Shown in pieces: positions 1 to 22,614 of a stretch of DNA of 23,560 bases. This DNA is from a virus, in IMG/VR virus record IMGVR_UViG_3300025087_000299, positions 1 through 23,560 of that record, one strand, 5' to 3'. A model generated the notes under the pieces. It saw only the letters and a list, made by a program, of their open reading frames with translations, made no database searches and was not told the DNA's origin. Both the position numbers and the translations under genes were made by a program. The stretch's first letter is position 1; each line of letters opens with the position of its first letter.

Positions 1-3000
1 TATCAAACCTCCGCCTTTGAAGATTTTTGGTTTTAGCCATTCCTGGCAATGTATATTTCATAAACTTATCCATTTGGGATTGAGTTACAACCAATTCGCC
101 ATCAAGAAGTTTGGCAAATTCTTCATTGCTTTTCAATCCACCAACAAAACCGCCGCTGTGATGAGGAACCGCAGCAACCGCCCCCGTTCCTGTGGTTGCG
201 CTTGGAGCGTTTGTTTGCCAATTGCCACCACCACCCATAGAAGAGAGATAATCATAATAGCGAACAGCTTTAGCATACGCCTCATCTGCACTCAAACCGG
301 CAGACACCCAAGAGGTAATCAAAGTTCTCATTTCTGATTCTACTGCCGCAACGCTGTCTTTGTTTTCTTTTAATTTTGCAATTATGGAATCAACTACTTG
401 CGCAACAACACTCCCTTGATATTGATACTGCGAAGTAACCGAAGAAACTCCTCCACCAACAGAATTCAATGCTTCGGCTTCATCTTTCAGTCTTTGAATT
501 TCCATATCAATCAGTTCGATTTGATATTCAATTCCTTCTTGATATTCGCTTTCTAGTTTTTCAAGAGCCTGAATTTGAAGTTCATATTTACGATCTTCGG
601 AATCTTTGTTGATTTCCTCTTCCAAAAGCATCGCTTCTTCTTCAAGTTGCAATCGTTTGGCTTTAGCTTCTTCGCTATCGTCTAGGCCAAGAATCATGAT
701 TTCTGTTTTCAGATCACCAAGTTCTTTATTTTTCTTTTGTAAGGAATCGTTGAACTCTTTTTCTTCTTTTAGAAGTTTCAGAGATTCTTTTTGAAGATCA
801 ATATACTTTTTGAAAGCCTTAAGATTATCTTGTAATGCTTTTTTCTTTCGAAGAAGTTCGTCTATGTCTGCTTGAATTCGCTTCTTTTCTGGCGATTCGG
901 CTTGACTTCCACCGCTTCCGCCCCCACCTCCTCCAAGAGTTGTGTAATTTGGTGCAACAGGTTTATACGGAGTCCCACCGGTTAGAAAACCAGTTAATTG
1001 TGCACCATACTCTGCAACTTGAGTTAGATATCCAAAAGATGAATTTTTCAGTTGAGCCATAAGTTGATCATATGAGATCATCTTATTCATCAGGGCAACT
1101 TTTACGTTTTCAGCAGAATTCAGAGTATTACCAGCAATATCAACTAAAACGATTTTCGCGTTATTAGCAGCATCAAATAAAACTTGAGAAACATCAGTTG
1201 CAAATTGTTGGAATTGATATTGGTTTAAATAAATTCCGTCAACTAATCTACCCTGAATATTTGATATAGCATTAGCAGTTTCATTCAACAGACCAAGTAG
1301 TGCCGCTTTCATTTCTTCCGACAACTCGGTTGAGTTTATGATTGCGTCATTCAGCCAGGAAAAATAACTTTCTGTATGAGACTTCAAGGCGTCTATGTTT
1401 ACAGCGCCTTCTTCGGTTAGAAAGTTTTGAATGTCTGCGCCTTCACCTAAGAATTTCTGTAATGCTTCATATGCCTCTTGAGATGTTTCTCCGAATTGTC
1501 CGATTGCGTCACTAAGAGCCTGATAACCAGTTAAAGTTTCATCAAGTCGTTCTCTTTCTTCTTCGAATCCGGTTAGAAAAAACCCACCAGATTCAGATGG
1601 CATTTTATCCATAGTCTTAAGCATGAATTCAAGAATTTCAACCTGTTTCGCAGCAGATTCGGTAAGTGGGCCTGCCGCCTTGATTGCCGCTATAGCGGTT
1701 TCAATCAACTCTTTCTTGTATTCTTTTAACTTTTCAGTGTTTAAAGTAAGACTATCTCCCTCAATTTCAAGAGCCTCTAAATATTCTGGATAGGCTTCAG
1801 CCAACTTTTGAATATCTTCAACACCGAATTCTCCCTTTCCAAAGGAAGTTATTGCATCATCTATGACCGTTATTTTATCTTGAATGCCGTCTAAGACATC
1901 CGAAAATTCTCTGAAAGCACCACCAACAAACTCCACTTCTTCTCCAAGAATTCCAGATATTCTTCCGGCCTCAAACTCTGCGTCACTAAGTCCCCAGAGA
2001 GAATTCGAATATTCTTTGACTATTCCATCAACTGTCGGAATGAGAGTATAAAACCTTCCTGTTTCATCAACCGAATATCCTAGATAAAGAGCAGTTTCTT
2101 TCAATGCCCTAGAATATTCTTCAAATGTTTTAGATGTTTTACCTAGCGTTTCAATTGTTACTTTAGCTAGGTCTTCCCGTAACTTTTCTTCGTCAATCAG
2201 CGCCCTCAGATAAAACCACTGCTTGTCTAATACAGCATTTGTATTATCCATCGCTTTGCGATATCTGTCAAGAACTTCTGTGTTGCTTGCCTCAACTTCG
2301 ATTAACTTTCTGTTTGCTTCTTCCCACGCTGAGGCAACATTTTTAATTCCGTCTTCGGCATCTTTTTGTAACTTTCTATAAACCAAAAATGCGGCAACTA
2401 ACCCGCTTATTCCTATTGCAAGATTAGCTGTTGCAATTGTTGCAGCATTTAAACCAAAGGTATATGCGTTTATTCCTGCGATCAATCTGGGAATAGATGC
2501 TATTGCAGAGGTTAAGTTTGTTCCAAATGCTAAAACGTGTTGAGAATTGTATAAGACTAGGGCAGCAGTGGCAACCACAATAATTGAACTCAAACCGCCA
2601 ATTTGATCAATCAGAGTCAATATTCCGGTTCCGAGATCAATTACATCTCTTACAAGATCGCTGGGGATAAAGTTTTGCCATAATTTCTGTTTTGTTGCCA
2701 AGAATTTTTCTTGAGCAGCTTCAACGCTTTCAAGATAAATAGCATAACGTTTCTGTGCTAGGTTCTCTGCGGCCTGTTGAAGAATCATGGCTTTTTGTAC
2801 TTTTTCTTGCTCTCCCAAAAGAGTCAGCAAAACTTCTCTCTGGCGCAAACCGCCAATGGCGGTTGCAACGGCCCGCTGTTCCAATTCACCAATCTGATCC
2901 CATTTGGAGGACAGTTCATCCAAAACATCGGCCATAGATCGGAATCCGCCCTCTTCCTCCCTAAGACGAATTCCAACCAACGACAATGCCTTTTCAACGT

Positions 3001-3074
3001 CATTGATATTGGTAGCGTCATCCTCAAAAACTTTTCCTAATTTAATATTTTCCATACGAGCAAAAATGGTTTTA
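1..3074 (-). CDS. Tail tape-measure protein, exon 2 (partial, runs off window)
   Basis: This is the downstream exon of the tape-measure gene; the protein sets tail length and occupies the tail lumen before DNA ejection. No ATG is needed at its head: joined to the exon ending at 4313 it restores the reading ...GEAF-KTIFARMENIK. It then continues through the tape-measure block with VGIRLREE, VLDELSSKWDQIGELE and ATAIGGLRQREVLL, as in Firmicutes phage tape measures. A hydrophobic region follows (about 2330-2680), then long helical stretches, a Gly/Ser-rich linker near 905-935, a coiled coil (about 480-900), and a C-terminal HHSGGFVGG...LLDGELVV motif near 80-165 that is typical of this family. 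The frame was checked open at both ends and in several places between. About 1,025 codons lie here and no stop is reached before position 1. Confidence 0.93.
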
Positions 3075-4312
3075 CATTATGTTACTACTCCGGTTTGGAG
3101 TGAGAATACTACTTCTTTAAGGTGTCTTTACACCTGAGTATTCTTCTGCGATTTCTTTTATTGGCTTATATCGCAGTTCGGACTATCTCATCACCATCTA
3201 AATATGGTGTTTTCTTATTTAGTCTCTCAACGCGCAAGTGTCATATTCAAAATACGGAACCCAGACAACATCATTATAGAACAATATTCCACCCTCAAAA
3301 TGATAATTCATGGAATGGTGGTTATCTATGTCTCCATTATTAAGCACAAAGAATTCTAGTAATTTAGAACACATTTCTGAATTTTTAATTATATCATCTT
3401 CCCATAAATATAATATTTTGTATCCAGAATCGTTTAGAGAATGTTTCTTTCGACAATCTCTTTCTACATTTCTCTGCTGCTTGTCGTTTATTGTTTGATT
3501 ATATTTTCTAACGTCACAATGCCAGTAGGTTCCCATAACCTCAATTACCAAACTTCCAATCAAAACGTCTGCGAAAAATCCATTTATTTTCTCCTCTATC
3601 AAATATTCAAACCCTAATTCATCCAGCATATTGCAGACTGCCACGTGGGGCTTAGTGAGAGAATTGATCATGGCTGCCATCGCACACTTCTTAGAACAAT
3701 GTTTTGGGATTCTGTTTCTTCGAAAAGGTCTTTTTATTTTTTCTCCGCACACTTTACATAAAAACGTTCGATCATCTTCGGAATAGTTTTTCATATAACT
3801 GGGGCTTTTTTCTCCCACCAAATTCTTTTTTCCTATTCCGACACAAGCAGTAGAACAAAACCTGTGATTTTCATGTCTTGGTTGAACAAATTCTTCCCCA
3901 CAAGATTCGCAAATTGTTACTTTTCTTCCTTCTCTTGAAACAAATGCAAAATTACATTCCTTAGAACAAAATACATGCTCACCTTTCTTTTTATAAGATA
4001 CCTCAAAATACTCACCACAGAAATCACAAAAATATTTATATTTTCCTCGATCTTGAACAGTTCTATATTCATTTCTACATTTTATAGAACAAAATTTTTT
4101 AAAAGAAACTGCATTCGGAATTTCTTTATTACAATTCAAACATCTCTTCATAAAAATATCTCACTTTCGGGAAGATAATGAGAAAACACACTCGCTTCGT
4201 CCTTGTCGCCCCGCCAAAAGGGTTTCCAAGCATTATGCGACATTGTCGCATAAATCATAAAAGAAAATTTTCTTTGCGGTTTATTTATTATGCCGCAAAG
4301 CCTCTAAAATCA
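3075..4312 (-). ncRNA. Group I self-splicing intron in the tape-measure gene
   Basis: The 1,238-nt intervening sequence has the hallmarks of a group I intron. The upstream exon ends GCCUU at 4313, which pairs with an internal GAGGC (4304-4300) to form P1 with the expected U·G wobble at the splice site. P2 is a perfect 8-bp stem (4293-4300 with 4272-4279), followed by another 8-bp hairpin (4234-4252). A P-like element, AAUGCUUGGAAACC, follows. Near the 3' end the R-like element GUUGAGAGACUAAAU (3231-3217) and the S-like element GAGAUAGUCCG (3189-3179) form P7 around P8 (CACCAU/AUGGUG). P9-type hairpins lie below. The last intron base is G at 3075 (omega-G). The endonuclease ORF lies before R, probably in the P6 loop. 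Exact boundaries are inferred from P1, omega-G and the restored frame. Confidence 0.92.
3219..4151 (-). CDS. Intron-encoded homing endonuclease, Vsr-like with four zinc fingers
   Basis: This 310-aa protein probably cuts intron-less tape-measure alleles and so spreads the intron. Four CxxC...CxxxC zinc fingers (about residues 4-25, 42-66, 81-103, 122-146) would bind DNA. The C-terminal half is a Vsr/EDxHD-like nuclease: D185 in FFADVLI, E194, the IEVMGTYWH stretch ending at H201, RD at 221-222, and the late GYKILYLWEDD motif. It sits wholly inside the group I intron. Its last codons (ALRD-stop) are part of the intron's R element. The ATG at 4151 has only a weak Shine-Dalgarno (GUGAG), and a short UCUCA/UGAGA pairing may mask it. 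Phage intron endonucleases are often kept low in this way. Family assignment is by motif only; the cutting site is not known. Confidence 0.88.
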   Translation of the reverse strand: MKRCLNCNKEIPNAVSFKKFCSIKCRNEYRTVQDRGKYKYFCDFCGEYFEVSYKKKGEHVFCSKECNFAFVSREGRKVTICESCGEEFVQPRHENHRFCSTACVGIGKKNLVGEKSPSYMKNYSEDDRTFLCKVCGEKIKRPFRRNRIPKHCSKKCAMAAMINSLTKPHVAVCNMLDELGFEYLIEEKINGFFADVLIGSLVIEVMGTYWHCDVRKYNQTINDKQQRNVERDCRKKHSLNDSGYKILYLWEDDIIKNSEMCSKLLEFFVLNNGDIDNHHSMNYHFEGGILFYNDVVWVPYFEYDTCALRD

Positions 4313-5589
4313 AAGGCTTCACCAATCGTACTCGCACTTCTTCTTGTTTCGGAAGAAACAACAGTTATATATGCTGCAAGTTGATCAAATTCAACTCCAG
4401 CCATTTGAGCAGAAGCAGATGACCTCTGCATTGCTTGAGCTATTTCCGAAACGCTAGTAGCATAGTTGTTGTCCAATTGAACCAATTTATCTACAACAGA
4501 TTCCGATTCTTCCGCTTCCATATTGAAGCCATTCATAATCGCTGTTAAATACTTTGTAGCGTCTGCGGCTTCAATTGCACCTAACTTTGAGAGCATCAAA
4601 GTTGATTTAAGCAATTCTTTAGTCTGAGAAATGCTCTTGCCGCTCCTGAGCCATTCTGTAGAGCCCCTGGCAATTTCCAAAGTGCTTACACCCATCTCAA
4701 TCGCCAAATCATTATAGGAATTCGCTAAGTCTTGAATCTGTTCGTTTGTTTTGGCTCCGGTTGTTTGTAGAACTTGAATATTTGTCAGTTCTTTATTCAA
4801 GTCTATAACATACTGAATGCCTTCTCTGAGTTGCCTATAAGCGCCATATAAAACCGCTGTGGCCGCTCCCCACTCTATAGTTCTTTTAATGGCAACCTTC
4901 ATTTGTTCCGCCCAAGACCAAGTCGCTTTACCGGATTGCCTAATTCCGGCGTCTAAAACTTGTAATTTATCATTAAGTTCAGCAACTCTCTGAGGATCGT
5001 CGCTGTCGATCATCTGCTTTGCGATAGAACGGGCTTCTCTAACTTGTGGTGTCTGAGATAACGTTTTCGCTCTTTCATCAAATTTCTGAGCCTGAATTTG
5101 CATACTCTTCATTTGATCCGCTCTTCTAGCATATAGAGCATCTAATTTTTCTTGAGTTCTTAGTTGATCTTGTTCTAGTTTCTCAGACTCTCTTATTGTT
5201 TTAAGATAATCTTTGCTGTATCTATCAGAGCGTTTGTAAAACTCTTCTTTCTGTTTGGTTACAACGCTTTCTCTCTGAGTAAGATTGAATATCGCCTTTC
5301 TTGTTTCATTTTCTTTGCTAATATACTCAAGAGTATATTGCTGTATCTTTCTCTTACCCTCAGCGTCTTCTATTTCTGTAGCGTGTAAACTACTTAGGCT
5401 TTTCGCCTCTTGACGTATTTTTTCAATTTGATCAGCAACGTCTTTTGGTAAAGTTGCCCCAATGTCTTCTAGTTTTAACTTAACAAAAAGTTGAATTTGC
5501 TGTTGCTTTTCTGCTAAAGCCTTTATTTGCGCTTCGATCTGACTTTTTAATCTGGCTTCAATTAAAACCGTAAAATTCTGTCCAGCCAT
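4313..5589 (-). CDS. Tail tape-measure protein, exon 1
   Basis: This exon encodes the first 425 residues plus two bases of the next codon. The start is the ATG at 5589, behind AGGAGGTGCTA; an in-frame GTG at 5595 lies inside that Shine-Dalgarno and is rejected. The N-terminal ~200 residues are Gln/Lys/Glu-rich and look like a coiled coil. The rest matches the conserved tape-measure core, with TGAKTNEQIQDLANSYNDLA, a STEWLRSG segment and SSETRRSASTIGEAF. Without splicing, translation would run a few codons into the intron and stop at 4288, giving a 433-aa fragment (FDFRGFAA end). Only spliced mRNA makes full tape measure. It follows the recombinase gene closely, and its translation start may be masked by a hairpin. 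Confidence 0.93.
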
Positions 5590-5618
5590 TAGCACCTCCT
5601 TTCAATTAGAGGCACTAA
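5589..5618 (-). promoter_or_regulatory. Hairpin masking the tape-measure ribosome binding site
   Basis: On the mRNA, UUAGUGCCUC (5618-5609) can pair with GAGGUGCUAA (5598-5589), a 10-bp stem with two G/U wobbles. The downstream arm contains part of the Shine-Dalgarno and the A of the AUG. The upstream arm contains the recombinase stop codon (5617-5615), so ribosomes finishing the recombinase would open the stem. This would couple and limit tape-measure synthesis. Pairing is seen in the sequence; the function is inferred. Confidence 0.5.
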
Positions 5619-6631
5619 TCTAAAAATGCCTCATCCGAATCATCTTTTTCCTTATTGATAACATAAATCTCAGTAGTTGTACTGCTTTCATGTCCGAGAA
5701 GTTTTTGAGCAACCTTAATATCTTTACCTTGTTCAATTACTAAACTAGTAGCTCTTGCTTCTCTAATAGCATGGGGGTGAAATCTTCTTCCCAGAATTGG
5801 GGTGATAAATTTTTCACTCCAGATATTGAAAGTAGATTCTGCTACCTGATGCCAGTTTCCTTCAATGCTTCTAATCACAAAAACATAAGGGCAATCATCT
5901 TCACCCCTAATCTCTAACCACTTTTTGATCGCCTTCATGGTTTTCTCATCAAACTGCAAAGTTCGTTTCTTTCCTTCGATTCCTCTACCTTTACAACGAA
6001 TAATATGAGTGATGTAAGATCGAGATTCTTTCTTTTCGATTATTCCGTTTTCTGACTTGACTTCTACGATAGAAACTTTCGGCTCGTAATGAACAACTTC
6101 TTTCAAAAGTTGTCTTACTTCATTTCTTCTAGCACCAGTCGAAAAACTAAATCTAAGATATGCGATCAACTGCCATCTTTCTTGCTTTTCTAATTCTTCA
6201 CAAATCATTTCAATCTCAGCGAGATTGGGTGGTTCCTTAGTTCTAACTAAAGCAGGAGGTGGGGGAGCAATCTTTTTGTTGATGTAATTTCTAAACATCG
6301 GATATTCTTCTTGATAATATAATTCGATATATCCGTTGAAACTAGAAATCACACTTCTTTTCAATCTAATGGCAGCAGAAGATAAACCTCTACGAACTAA
6401 GAAATTTTGATACATCAAAAAATCTCTTGACTTAATATCGTAGAAATTCTTATCTTCAAGATTATCTTTTACCCACAGAAAATAAATTTTAATAGCAGAT
6501 GAATATTGCTTCAATGTTTGTGGACTGAGTTGAACCGATTCTCGTAAGAATTCTTCAGCCATTTTTCTATTTTTAGGATTGACTAAATTCCATTGTTCAT
6601 CACTTACTTCTTCAATTTTTTCAACGCTCAT
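5615..6631 (-). CDS. Tyrosine recombinase (phage integrase / XerC-D-like)
   Basis: The 338-aa protein has a complete tyrosine-recombinase active site: R168 (TGARRNEV), K214 (KGRG), H287-x-x-R290 (HPHAIR), H314 (LLGHES) and the nucleophile Y323 (EIYV). Residues ~20-120 form the SAM-like core-binding domain, joined by a Pro-rich linker (PPPP at 123-126). The start is ATG 6631, sharing one base with the resolvase stop (TAATG) and preceded by AGAAGGA; the longer reading from 6661 begins inside the resolvase gene and is rejected. It could integrate the phage, resolve genome dimers or move a cassette. No attachment site is visible nearby, and its place between a resolvase and the tape measure is unusual for an integrase. 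Confidence 0.92.
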   Translation of the reverse strand: MSVEKIEEVSDEQWNLVNPKNRKMAEEFLRESVQLSPQTLKQYSSAIKIYFLWVKDNLEDKNFYDIKSRDFLMYQNFLVRRGLSSAAIRLKRSVISSFNGYIELYYQEEYPMFRNYINKKIAPPPPALVRTKEPPNLAEIEMICEELEKQERWQLIAYLRFSFSTGARRNEVRQLLKEVVHYEPKVSIVEVKSENGIIEKKESRSYITHIIRCKGRGIEGKKRTLQFDEKTMKAIKKWLEIRGEDDCPYVFVIRSIEGNWHQVAESTFNIWSEKFITPILGRRFHPHAIREARATSLVIEQGKDIKVAQKLLGHESSTTTEIYVINKEKDDSDEAFLD

Positions 6632-7086
6632 TATAAAATTCCTTCTTTGTGAAAATGACACAAGCCCACAGCAGCCGCGTCAGTCTCGTCTAGGTTGTTA
6701 AAGGTCATATTTGAATAAAAACTCGTAATAACGTCTCTGACAGCCTCTTTGGGGGCATTTCCACGCCCTAAAACGGCTTTCTTGACTGTCATTGGGGGGT
6801 AAAAAAGCTGTTTTATATCTGCAAACAAATATTGAACCACACCAAAAACTTTGTAAATTGCTTCTGTACTGCCTGGATATCTATAAAATCCTTGTTCAAA
6901 TAAAACAAGGTCTGGAGTGTATGTTTTTCGTAATTCTAATAGTTTATCAGCGATAATTTTTAATCTTTTCGGATGTTCTTTTTCGCTCTTTGTATCTATG
7001 CTGGTTACATGAATTAACTTTGCATCATTATCGAAAATACATATTCCAGTATTTGACATACTAATATCAAATGCCCATATGCTCAT
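6631..7086 (-). CDS. RuvC-like Holliday-junction resolvase
   Basis: This 151-aa protein has the RNase H-fold signature of RuvC-type resolvases: D7 in AFDISMSNTG, E64 in LVLFEQGFY, and the C-terminal acidic pair D133 and D136 in NLDETDAAAVGL. A basic segment resembling RuvC (KKAVLGRGNAPKEAV, about 102-116) is present. Length is close to cellular RuvC. It would cut four-way or branched DNA before packaging or during recombination. It follows a terminator, has the ribosome binding site TTGGAGAATAACA, and overlaps the recombinase start by one base, so the two are likely translated as a pair. It could instead act on other branched structures, as some phage RuvC-like nucleases do. Confidence 0.85.
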   Translation of the reverse strand: MSIWAFDISMSNTGICIFDNDAKLIHVTSIDTKSEKEHPKRLKIIADKLLELRKTYTPDLVLFEQGFYRYPGSTEAIYKVFGVVQYLFADIKQLFYPPMTVKKAVLGRGNAPKEAVRDVITSFYSNMTFNNLDETDAAAVGLCHFHKEGIL

Positions 7087-18004: not shown

Positions 18005-18919
18005 CTAAGAAAATAAATAGTTTGTTAAAATTTGTTCAATATTGTCTTTTTCCCAATAAGGAATAACCAACAGGTTTATTCCTTGAGAAAGACAATATTC
18101 TTCTTTTATTTTGTCTCTAAAAATAGTTTCTTGGAATCCTTTCGTTCCTCCAAAAAACTCATTTTCTTCATAGTGTTGCATTCCGTTAAACTCTATCCCC
18201 GTATTATGTTCCGGTAAATAAAAATCAAAAAGCAACCTTCGAACGTTCTTGCAATCATCAAATTTATGTTGAGGAAGAAAAAATATATTATTCTCAATTA
18301 AAAAATTTTCTATTTTTCTTTCACCGCGGGAACGATTGCACATTCCGCACGCACTATTGCCTCGAATAAACAACCAAGTCGTTTCCCATGTATACGAGCA
18401 AATTGAGCAAGAAACAGTCATTTTGGGCCAATCTACGTCATCGTAGGTTTGGTAGTTAACAAAAATCAAACCTCGCCTACTTAGGTCAGACCATATTTCT
18501 TCGGCGGAAAGTCTACTTTTCCTTGTCCTAGACGCTATTCCGCAATGAGAACACCTGTGACCCAATTTGAACGACGAGAATAGTATTTTATAATTCTTTC
18601 CGCATACTCCGCAAAGAATTTCTATTTTTCCATTTCCAGAATATTTTTCCGACAATAGAACATCTCCGTTCCCATTATCTTCTACATATCCAAAAACCTC
18701 TTCGTATGTTTGCAAAAATCTTTTCGAAACATTTTTTCTGCCACATTCATCACAGCGAAGGGACTTTCCGTATATGAAATTTCCTGCCTGTGGAAAATAG
18801 TGGTTTCCACACTTACATATAATTTCAATAGGGTTTCTTCTCCCAGTATATTCTCCGACCATATCGTAGCCCATTTCTAAGACCATGTTTCTAACTTCTT
18901 CAGTTGTTAGTTTCCTCAT
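18005..18919 (-). CDS. Free-standing homing endonuclease, zinc-finger Vsr-like (EDxHD)
   Basis: The 304-aa protein carries several CxxC zinc knuckles in its first ~200 residues (CKC, CDEC, CGVC, CSHC, CSIC, CGMC) and then a Vsr-like nuclease domain: RGERKIENFLIENN with its acidic residue, DFYLPEHNTGIEFNGMQHYE, RDKIKEEYC, and the end motif LLVIPYWEKDNIEQIL. This matches the EDxHD homing endonuclease group. Its ATG overlaps the upstream small ORF's stop (ATGA). Its TAG stop is part of the TAGGAGG ribosome binding site of the decoration gene. It sits just before the decoration and capsid genes, so its target is probably in this conserved region in related phages. AT-rich codons differ from those of its downstream neighbours. 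Confidence 0.87.
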   Translation of the reverse strand: MRKLTTEEVRNMVLEMGYDMVGEYTGRRNPIEIICKCGNHYFPQAGNFIYGKSLRCDECGRKNVSKRFLQTYEEVFGYVEDNGNGDVLLSEKYSGNGKIEILCGVCGKNYKILFSSFKLGHRCSHCGIASRTRKSRLSAEEIWSDLSRRGLIFVNYQTYDDVDWPKMTVSCSICSYTWETTWLFIRGNSACGMCNRSRGERKIENFLIENNIFFLPQHKFDDCKNVRRLLFDFYLPEHNTGIEFNGMQHYEENEFFGGTKGFQETIFRDKIKEEYCLSQGINLLVIPYWEKDNIEQILTNYLFS

Positions 18920-21022: not shown

Positions 21023-21988
21023 TCAACCTCCAAAAATCTCTTTCATTAATATTTTATCAATATTCTTAATTTCCCAATATGGAATAATCAATAACCTAAT
21101 ATTGTTTTCTAAACAAAAATTTATTTTTATAGAGTCTCTAACTTTTAAATCATTGAAAAAGTTAATTGAGTGTTCAAATCCTTTTCCTCCGAAGTCAACT
21201 GGCTTATAATGCTGTATTCCATGATATTCAATACAAAAGTTTCCGCTACCCAATATAAAGTCAAACGGTAAATGCCTTATGCTTTTGCATCCCAGAATAG
21301 ACTTATGAGTTTCAAACTCAACATTATTGCGTAAAAGAAATCTCGAAACAATATTTTCCCCGCGTGACGTGGAGGCGCACACAGGACAGCCACTTCCCAA
21401 ATTATAAACCCTTACGTTTATGTCGCACTTCCAAGAATGTCCACAAGAATTACATTTCCACCAAACAGTCCTTCCACTTCCGGGGGAATACTCCTCTGGA
21501 CTCTTACTATTCTTTTCATAATCCCATTCTTGCAATAGTTCCGAGTGAACCGAAGCAAACGACCTGTTCGGAGAAACTCTCTTTCCTGCACAATACGGGC
21601 AGCCCTTCTTGTTGGCATACATCGTGTCCCAAGAGGCATCGAATTCATTAGAACAAACGCTACAGAAAAACATCAGTTTTTCTCTTGCTCCAAGATATTC
21701 CGTAGATTTCAAAGAAATCGAACCTTTAAATTCCTTAAGCCATTTTTCAATGTTGTACAATGCAAACGGATTATCCTTATTAAATTTTTCTGGTATATTA
21801 TTGCGTTTTATCGCAGACCAGAACTTGCTACAAGTAGTATAACTAATATATCCGTTTACATCAGATATGTACACGGGAGAGCCAAATCCGGCATACTCAT
21901 CTTCTTTTGTAATAAGAGTATATCCGTTTGATTCCAGGAAGAATACTGCTTCTTGATACGGCTTTCTATTATACGCAATTCTTGTCAT
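21023..21988 (-). CDS. Free-standing homing endonuclease, zinc-ribbon Vsr-like (EDxHD)
   Basis: Zinc-binding modules of this 321-aa protein occupy about residues 100-205 (CSVC...CPYC; CNSCGHSW...CPVC). The second matches the WWKC/CGHxW zinc-ribbon type (PF14311-like) common in these proteins. A Vsr-like domain follows: RGENIVSRFLLRNN, DFILGSGNFCIEYHGIQHYK, KVRDSIKINFC, and the terminal LLIIPYWEIKNIDKIL. It is homologous to the endonuclease at 18005-18919 and to the remnant at 22483-22614. Its start has a poor ribosome binding site, 16 bases after the ferritin stop. Its GGAGG-containing end serves the next gene. Codons are AT-rich. Confidence 0.87.
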   Translation of the reverse strand: MTRIAYNRKPYQEAVFFLESNGYTLITKEDEYAGFGSPVYISDVNGYISYTTCSKFWSAIKRNNIPEKFNKDNPFALYNIEKWLKEFKGSISLKSTEYLGAREKLMFFCSVCSNEFDASWDTMYANKKGCPYCAGKRVSPNRSFASVHSELLQEWDYEKNSKSPEEYSPGSGRTVWWKCNSCGHSWKCDINVRVYNLGSGCPVCASTSRGENIVSRFLLRNNVEFETHKSILGCKSIRHLPFDFILGSGNFCIEYHGIQHYKPVDFGGKGFEHSINFFNDLKVRDSIKINFCLENNIRLLIIPYWEIKNIDKILMKEIFGG

Positions 21989-22004: not shown

Positions 22005-22481
22005 CTAAGAACCCATGATTAGATCGAAAACGATTATGTCTGAGACAGAAGTCAATCTTTTCACAAATTCTTCAGATTCGCGCTCTTCCAAAACTTGGTA
22101 TGAAAGCAGTTCGGAAATAAAAGGCAGGTCAATAAATGATCTACTTTCTAAAGCCAATCCATAAATATCTTCAATTGATTCTGTTGTAGCTTGTTCTGTT
22201 TCCAGATAAATTCTGCCAACATCATCAAGTGAATTAATTTTGATTTCAGGTTGTTCAACCTCAATGTAGTGATACTGACCATCTACGCGAGAATTTATGT
22301 AATCTAAAATTTTCTCGTAATGACTCATTTCTTCATCGGCTTGAGATTTAAAATGTTTAGCTAAGTTTTTTAACTGTAAGTTTTCAAAGTAAGATTGAAT
22401 AGTTGTATACTTGTAAAAATTACCCATCTCTGAAGCCATTTGATTACAAAAAGAGTCACATAATTCTTGTGATAATTTGAT
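22005..22481 (-). CDS. Ferritin (bacterial non-haem type), probable AUC start
   Basis: The 158-aa protein aligns along its length with FtnA-type ferritins, which oxidise Fe(II) and store iron in 24-subunit shells. Counted from the AUC: E18, E51 and H54 (EEMSHY) and E96 match the FtnA ferroxidase residues E17, E50, H53 and E94; the Q127 position is E133 here. KLSQELCDSFCNQM matches the ferritin N-terminus, so the natural start falls on the ATC at 22481. AAGGAGG lies six bases upstream of it. The alternative ATG at 22511 has no ribosome binding site and would add ten residues encoded by the endonuclease remnant. Ferritin in a phage head operon is unusual: iron handling, oxidative defence or cargo are possible roles. 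Confidence 0.85.
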   Translation of the reverse strand: MKLSQELCDSFCNQMASEMGNFYKYTTIQSYFENLQLKNLAKHFKSQADEEMSHYEKILDYINSRVDGQYHYIEVEQPEIKINSLDDVGRIYLETEQATTESIEDIYGLALESRSFIDLPFISELLSYQVLEERESEEFVKRLTSVSDIIVFDLIMGS

Positions 22482-22482
22482 A

Positions 22483-22614
22483 TCACACCTCCTTTCCGAA
22501 CAGTTCTTCATAGAGAATTTGTTCGATGTTATCGAATTCTGTATAAGGGATTCGAATTAATTTTATGTTGTTGTCGATACGGTGTTGAGTTTTGATGGAG
22601 TCTCGCGCCACCTT
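22483..22614 (-). pseudogene. C-terminal remnant of a Vsr-like homing endonuclease
   Basis: Reading KV-ARDSIKTQHRIDNNIKLI then RIPYTEFDNIEQILYEELFG down to a TGA at 22485-22483, this piece matches the C-termini of the endonucleases at 21023-21988 (RDSIKINFCLENNIRLL; IPYWEIKNIDKIL) and 18005-18919 (RDKIKEEYCLSQGINLL; IPYWEKDNIEQIL). Nothing homologous remains upstream. The last codons contain the AAGGAGG ribosome binding site of the ferritin gene, which may explain why this end was kept. Confidence 0.85.

Follow-up and report, generated by a model that had tools for sequence, protein, structure and literature searches.

The interrupted tape-measure gene

The window (the whole 23,560-nt stretch of viral record IMGVR_UViG_3300025087_000299 that was analysed) carries a tail tape-measure protein (TMP) gene in two parts on its minus strand. 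Exon 1 (4313–5595; 427 codons plus 2 nt, from a putative start codon) matches Pfam PhageMin_Tail (2.5e-24) and PHROG 4211, and exon 2 (2–3074), which reaches the contig end, also matches PHROG 4211 and is found in the sister contig L002. The two halves are consecutive in this one tape-measure family (profile positions 393–773 and 787–1008), in agreement with the host gene named in an earlier sequence-only reading. The ORF starting at 5595 ends at 4288, with a stop right behind GEAF (DFRGFAA-stop), and a second long ORF, which opens with an in-frame ATG at 3055 and extends as far as the end of the contig, is the continuation of the tape measure. Removal of the 1,238 nt from 4312 to 3075 joins the two in an open, stop-free frame, ...STIGEAF/KTIFARMENIKLGK... 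(GEAF-KTIFARM; here and below, a slash within a peptide marks the insertion point). The last base of exon 1 is U4313, the intervening sequence opens with U and closes with G, and the first base of exon 2 is U3074. These limits are exact to the base compared with the sequence-only reading, whose splice sites are borne out by the restored frame, an invariant U.G pair (7/7 introns, below), and the terminal G. From the restored frame, covariance models, and covariation, 3075–4312 is almost certainly a group I intron of the mobile type within the TMP gene, which would be cut out of the RNA and spread between phages by its own nuclease.

Several other features of the region can be noted. Exon 1 (4313–5595) also matches PHROG 29312 and 14441, short tape-measure families ending at the exon 1 end, which are possibly intron-split fragments annotated as whole proteins. 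Over 7.5 kb, the sister contig differs from the window only by a 20-nt deletion (L002 5875 vs. window 1610–1629) that would shift the TMP frame and is possibly an assembly fault; the final ~25 nt of the window, where exon 2 meets the contig end, are unlike the sister contig. A tyrosine recombinase gene is an odd conserved neighbor upstream of the tape measure, in the window (5615–6661) as in L003 (1683–2678), L005 (1785–2798), and L008 (1978–2988), and a ferritin-like protein gene (22005–22511; Pfam Ferritin, 2e-17) is located within the phage structural region.

The endonuclease ORF

Within the intron is a 310-aa homing endonuclease ORF (3219–4151, minus strand) with its own start and its own frame, separate from the TMP exon frame. 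It lies in the P6a loop and is closed by a TAA that overlaps the 5′ strand of P7 (GACUAA). Zinc-finger-like Cys motifs are followed by a Vsr/EDxHD-type nuclease domain, with matches to PHROG endonuclease families. The C-terminal ~100 residues are homologous to PDB 3r3p, "Mobile intron protein" (phmmer, E 2.8e-5), which we take to be I-Bth0305I, and the earlier proposal that the intron encodes its own endonuclease is supported by this match. Vsr proper is reached by phmmer only at E 0.4; the EDxHD homing family has been reviewed (PMC3943268). Residues D195, E204, and G207 are invariant across six related endonuclease ORFs. Several zinc-finger-type CxxC pairs occur in the N-terminal half, where Pfam matches are weak only. 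The start region of the ORF adjoins a predicted hairpin, UCUCAUU...AGUGAGA, that pairs the likely ribosome-binding site and may delay translation, as happens in td.

Two more HNH/homing nuclease ORFs (PHROG 559) with zinc-ribbon domains are found amid structural genes of the window, at 18005–18919 and 21023–21988. Neither of the two covariance models described below finds an intron core near them in the window, and they are probably free-standing homing genes.

Relatives with and without the intron

A search with the endonuclease identified L005–L007, in which the TMP is 45% and the endonuclease 28% identical to those of the window and the intron is at the same TMP codon. In all, six distinct introns are located exactly at GxxF/K (window/L020, L005/L037/L038/L043, L035, L036, L039/L048, and L047), and a seventh, in L042, is six codons upstream of it. 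All seven start after a U, end in G, and restore the frame when removed, and the same-codon relatives also retain a long homing endonuclease gene (HEG) ORF.

Uninterrupted TMP homologs, which the sequence-only reading had suggested looking for, do exist: they include L017, L018, L019, L026, L027, L029, and Perkons, among others, and L003 is uninterrupted at the GEAF/K codon. The arrangement that it had named as contrary evidence, relatives with the two halves as separate proteins, was not seen among these; there, the TMP is either unbroken or split by an intron. Six changes on the TMP tree are required to account for the presence of the GEAF/K intron, no fewer than three of them forced by well-supported branches, and presence and absence differ within pairs such as L026/L037. 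In these comparisons of sequences, the patchy occurrence at an identical codon indicates intron mobility.

Fold of the intron RNA

The intron RNA, read from the minus strand, can be folded from end to end. The internal guide GAGGC (4300–4304), the 3′ strand of P1, pairs with exon GCCUU (4317–4313), the full P1 being AAGCCUU/GAGGCUU with the U.G at the 5′ splice site. Adjacent to it, UUUUA (4305–4309) forms the 5′ strand of P10 with UAAAA of exon 2 (3074–3070). This pairing, 5 bp in the window, goes beyond the features listed in the sequence-only reading; its first pair is A-U, G-C, or U.G across relatives, and it is absent in L036 and L047. The P2 hairpin, CUUUGCGG/CCGCAAAG (4272–4300), has two-sided changes at 4/5 scored pairs. 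P3 pairs UUUUCUU (4261–4267) with AAGAAAA (3210–3216) and is paired in 7/7 introns, with two-sided changes at two pairs. Between P3 and P4, in J3/4, is an extra 9-bp hairpin, UUAUGCGAC/GUCGCAUAA (4233–4253); hairpins of differing sequence are found at the same place in five of the seven introns (window, L036, L039, L047, and L042) and none in L005 and L035. P4–P5 (4202–4230) consists of CUUG (4230–4227)/CAAG (4205–4202) around CCC/GGG, with two-sided changes at 3/4 pairs of P4; P5 is poorly aligned in the seven-intron set. P6 was judged by eye and from the minimum-energy fold, with P6a pairing GCGAGUGU (4188–4195) and ACACUUGC (3241–3234) around the loop that holds the ORF.

Downstream of the ORF, P8 (CACCAU/AUGGUG, 3192–3209) is flanked by the R element GACUA (3224–3220), the 5′ strand of P7, and the S element UAGUC (3185–3181), its 3′ strand. 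The R element was placed by covariance model and covariation, the S element by both covariance models and covariation, and P8 and the 3′ strand of P3 by seven-sequence covariation. Five introns have A-U as the last pair of P7, and two (L047 and L042) have G-C. P9 (CUGCGAU/AUCGCAG, 3146–3176) has two-sided changes at 4/6 pairs, and P9.1 (3104–3143), with the inner hairpin AGGUGU-AAAG-ACACCU, at 6/7 outer and 2/6 inner pairs. P9.2 (ACUCC/GGAGU, 3087–3101) precedes the 3′ end, AGUAACA...G, of which AGUAACA is common to the relatives. The P1 with its U·G, the R and S elements around P8, and the terminal G of the sequence-only reading were thus each recovered, and all seven introns end in G. No P7.1/P7.2 stems, a trait of the IA subgroup, are present between P7 and the 3′ strand of P3, which follows P7 by at most 3 nt, so membership in IA is not claimed. 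An alternative fold, in which AAGGACG in the 5′ half would be the R element and P8 would hold the ORF, was rejected, since the strands of P6a pair on either side of the ORF and the positions of P3 and P7 are fixed by the L005 homolog.

Covariance models and covariation

Rfam RF00028, which the sequence-only reading expected to match the core, gave no match over the intron at gathering or permissive thresholds. This negative is uninformative because the control T4 td escapes the model too (no match at E up to 0.01); nrdB scores 35.7 bits against a cut-off of 50, and Microcystis phage MaeS 27.5. Long ORF insertions defeat this model. Models were therefore built here on the contiguous 3′ core, P7-P8-P7′-P9, from introns other than that of the window, and these do match. 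The first was made from nine other phage introns, with P7–P3 inserts left out because variable inserts misplaced the R element in the MAFFT alignment; its sole match in the window is 3230–3146 (62.5 bits, E 1.7e-12). The second, from the T4 introns td, nrdB, and nrdD only, finds the same 3′ core at 33.0 bits (E 2.4e-6), with a runner-up in the window at 9.7 bits.

Covariation was assessed in the seven introns (the six at the identical codon and that of L042) with ORFs excised, over a 57-pair structure comprising P1, P2, P3, P4, P5, P7, P8, P9, both parts of P9.1, and P10. Two-sided, compensatory changes occur in 28 of the 57 pairs, P3 and P10 pseudoknot pairs included, and none of 500 shuffles reached as many; the structure was partly drawn from the same seven sequences, which biases the count somewhat in its favor, but the excess is far larger than that. 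Over the seven introns the structure is 93.4% paired, as against 41–50% when slid. The strands of P3 are ~1 kb apart in the genome yet covary, and P4, P7, and P8 covary as well. Together with the two models, these changes confirm the group I identity proposed earlier. BLASTN with the 5′ half of the intron against phages gave short chance matches only, a plasmid search with the 3′ half gave matches at chance level, and an exact-pattern scan of viral contigs with the core motifs found the sister contig alone.

Proposed mechanism and alternatives

As structure and covariation suggest, the RNA would fold to a P3-P8/P4-P6 ribozyme core with guanosine bound at P7, cleavage at the U.G pair of P1 would fall immediately behind U4313, and exon ligation, with P10 aligning exon 2, would yield an uninterrupted TMP frame. 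The ORF in the P6a loop is predicted to produce an I-Bth0305I-like nuclease (Vsr fold, EDxHD). By analogy, this may cut intron-free TMP alleles near the IGEAF/KTIFAR codons, a step supported by the patchy presence at an identical codon, and repair of the cut allele would copy the intron across. The sequence-only reading went on to propose that splicing efficiency would control virion assembly, which is speculative.

The arrangement could also be read as a fractured gene, with a HEG that entered the TMP unaccompanied by a functional intron and with two separate TMP proteins as the products. The stop of the exon 1 ORF at 4288, the in-frame ATG of exon 2 at 3055, and the short PHROG families 29312 and 14441, which could be split genes, would fit this; a free HEG, however, needs neither the full covarying core nor the precise in-frame splice sites found in seven relatives, which makes this reading very improbable. 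An intein is suggested by an endonuclease between the halves of one protein; it is excluded by the in-frame stop past GEAF and by the endonuclease having its own start and frame, the Pfam scan includes no protein-splicing domain, and its probability is negligible. Somewhat more weight, while still unlikely, is given to a genuine intron that depends on a helper protein, or whose window copy has degenerated and is spliced inefficiently. The AU-rich P3 and the J3/4 insertion point in that direction, and in sequence tests a splicing-defective copy would appear nearly alike, but every core helix is intact in the window copy, the sister contig has an identical intron (no mismatches, over an aligned 7.5 kb), and the same-codon relatives retain the long HEG ORF. 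A mobile intron with an intact ribozyme core is the preferred reading.

Multiple insertion sites in one gene

A TMP profile search retrieved 33 loci, representing 25 TMP lineages at 95% identity. Within the ~328-aa region scanned, 15 of these are interrupted and 10 uninterrupted; the scan was limited to relatives with two peptide patterns, so this ratio describes the retrieved set and not the frequency in phages. About eight intron sites fall inside ~200 codons: EW(L)/RQGK (L034/L040, L042), KL(V)/SLDN (L042, L044/L045), YATSAG/E (L030/L003, L031), SA/ETIG (L042), GEAF/K (window and five lineages), a probable site IG/ESF (L044), IAG/VRQ (L022/L023, L024/L025, L028), and one near NL/LM (L033). 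L042 has three consecutive ORF-less group I introns (1733–3099; 328, 381, and 340 nt), each at its own codon of a single TMP; one of them is homologous to the window's intron, yet six codons upstream. The closely related TMPs of L030, L031, L035, and L022 have introns at three different sites.

One intron type (guide GCCAG, start ...GCCAGAACAUAUAG) follows CUGGU at KL(V)/SLDN, YATSAG/E, and IAG/VRQ, at L030 2041, L031 2022, L042 2229, L044 3826, L022 4220, L024 1580, and L028 4220. Its distribution among these sequences suggests that GCCAG-guide introns moved within one gene. It is conceivable, if on balance rather doubtful, that the ~200-codon TMP core is a preferred group I home, with one type spreading within the gene and the J3/4 hairpin a new peripheral element. 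GCCAG introns at three CUGGU codons would be expected had they been moved by reverse splicing or a relaxed endonuclease. No description of dense multi-site occupation of a TMP, or of CUGGU/GCCAG reuse at three codons, was found in the open-access literature searched; the multi-site hotspot and the use of three CUGGU sites by a single intron type appear to be new here. The unusual P3–P4 hairpin may be new as well. This allele set, in which one TMP either lacks an intron or has one at any of about eight codons, is a natural experiment on group I intron movement within and between phages. TMPs of metagenomic phages may be mistaken for a pair of unrelated fragments and an HNH-like gene when they are one spliced protein; if the introns are left in, tail-length predictions from such genomes would therefore be wrong.

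Known tape-measure introns and comparison systems

The ICP1 TMP contains three introns, and RNA-seq and RT-PCR demonstrate that they are spliced (PMC10448857; PMC9040626). Barth et al. (2023, PMC10448857) count the TMP among the genes that are frequently interrupted; phage structural genes in general host introns too (PMC3706429). A HEG-bearing intron in a phage TMP is thus of a kind already known, and that of the window is a further case. With three proven introns in ICP1 (PMC10448857) and 15/25 lineages interrupted here, the tape measure can hardly be called an uncommon host, as the sequence-only reading had it. ICP1 resembles the present case in that a HEG-bearing intron splits a phage TMP and that one TMP can have multiple introns, but its HEGs are of HNH-3 type, and the likeness to the window is by description, not by sequence. 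The T4 td, nrdB, and nrdD introns share the R-P8-S-P9 core, found in the window by the model made from them, and td, like the window, has a P6a-loop ORF running up to P7 (I-TevI in td). The T4 introns differ in their DNA-metabolism host genes, their P7.1/P7.2 stems, and their endonuclease family. Homology to I-Bth0305I covers the C-terminal ~100 residues, upstream of which lies the zinc-finger-like region; the host gene of I-Bth0305I is different.

Among the BLASTN matches of the 3′ core are the termini of split genes that carry a HEG, from MaeS, from a pair of crAss-like phages, and, with a weaker E, from KPN234. The MaeS intron (MT362618) is also in a TMP, with a 3′ core 72% identical over 87 nt and an endonuclease 26% identical, but at a different codon of a distant TMP. 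In MaeS (L009, 2862–4156) both intron and endonuclease are unannotated, and the TMP is annotated as two "hypothetical proteins". In the crAss-like phages cr1_1 and cr50_1 (L011/L012) and Klebsiella phage KPN234 (L013), the split genes, for dUTPase and RNA polymerase, contain introns that share this 3′ core.
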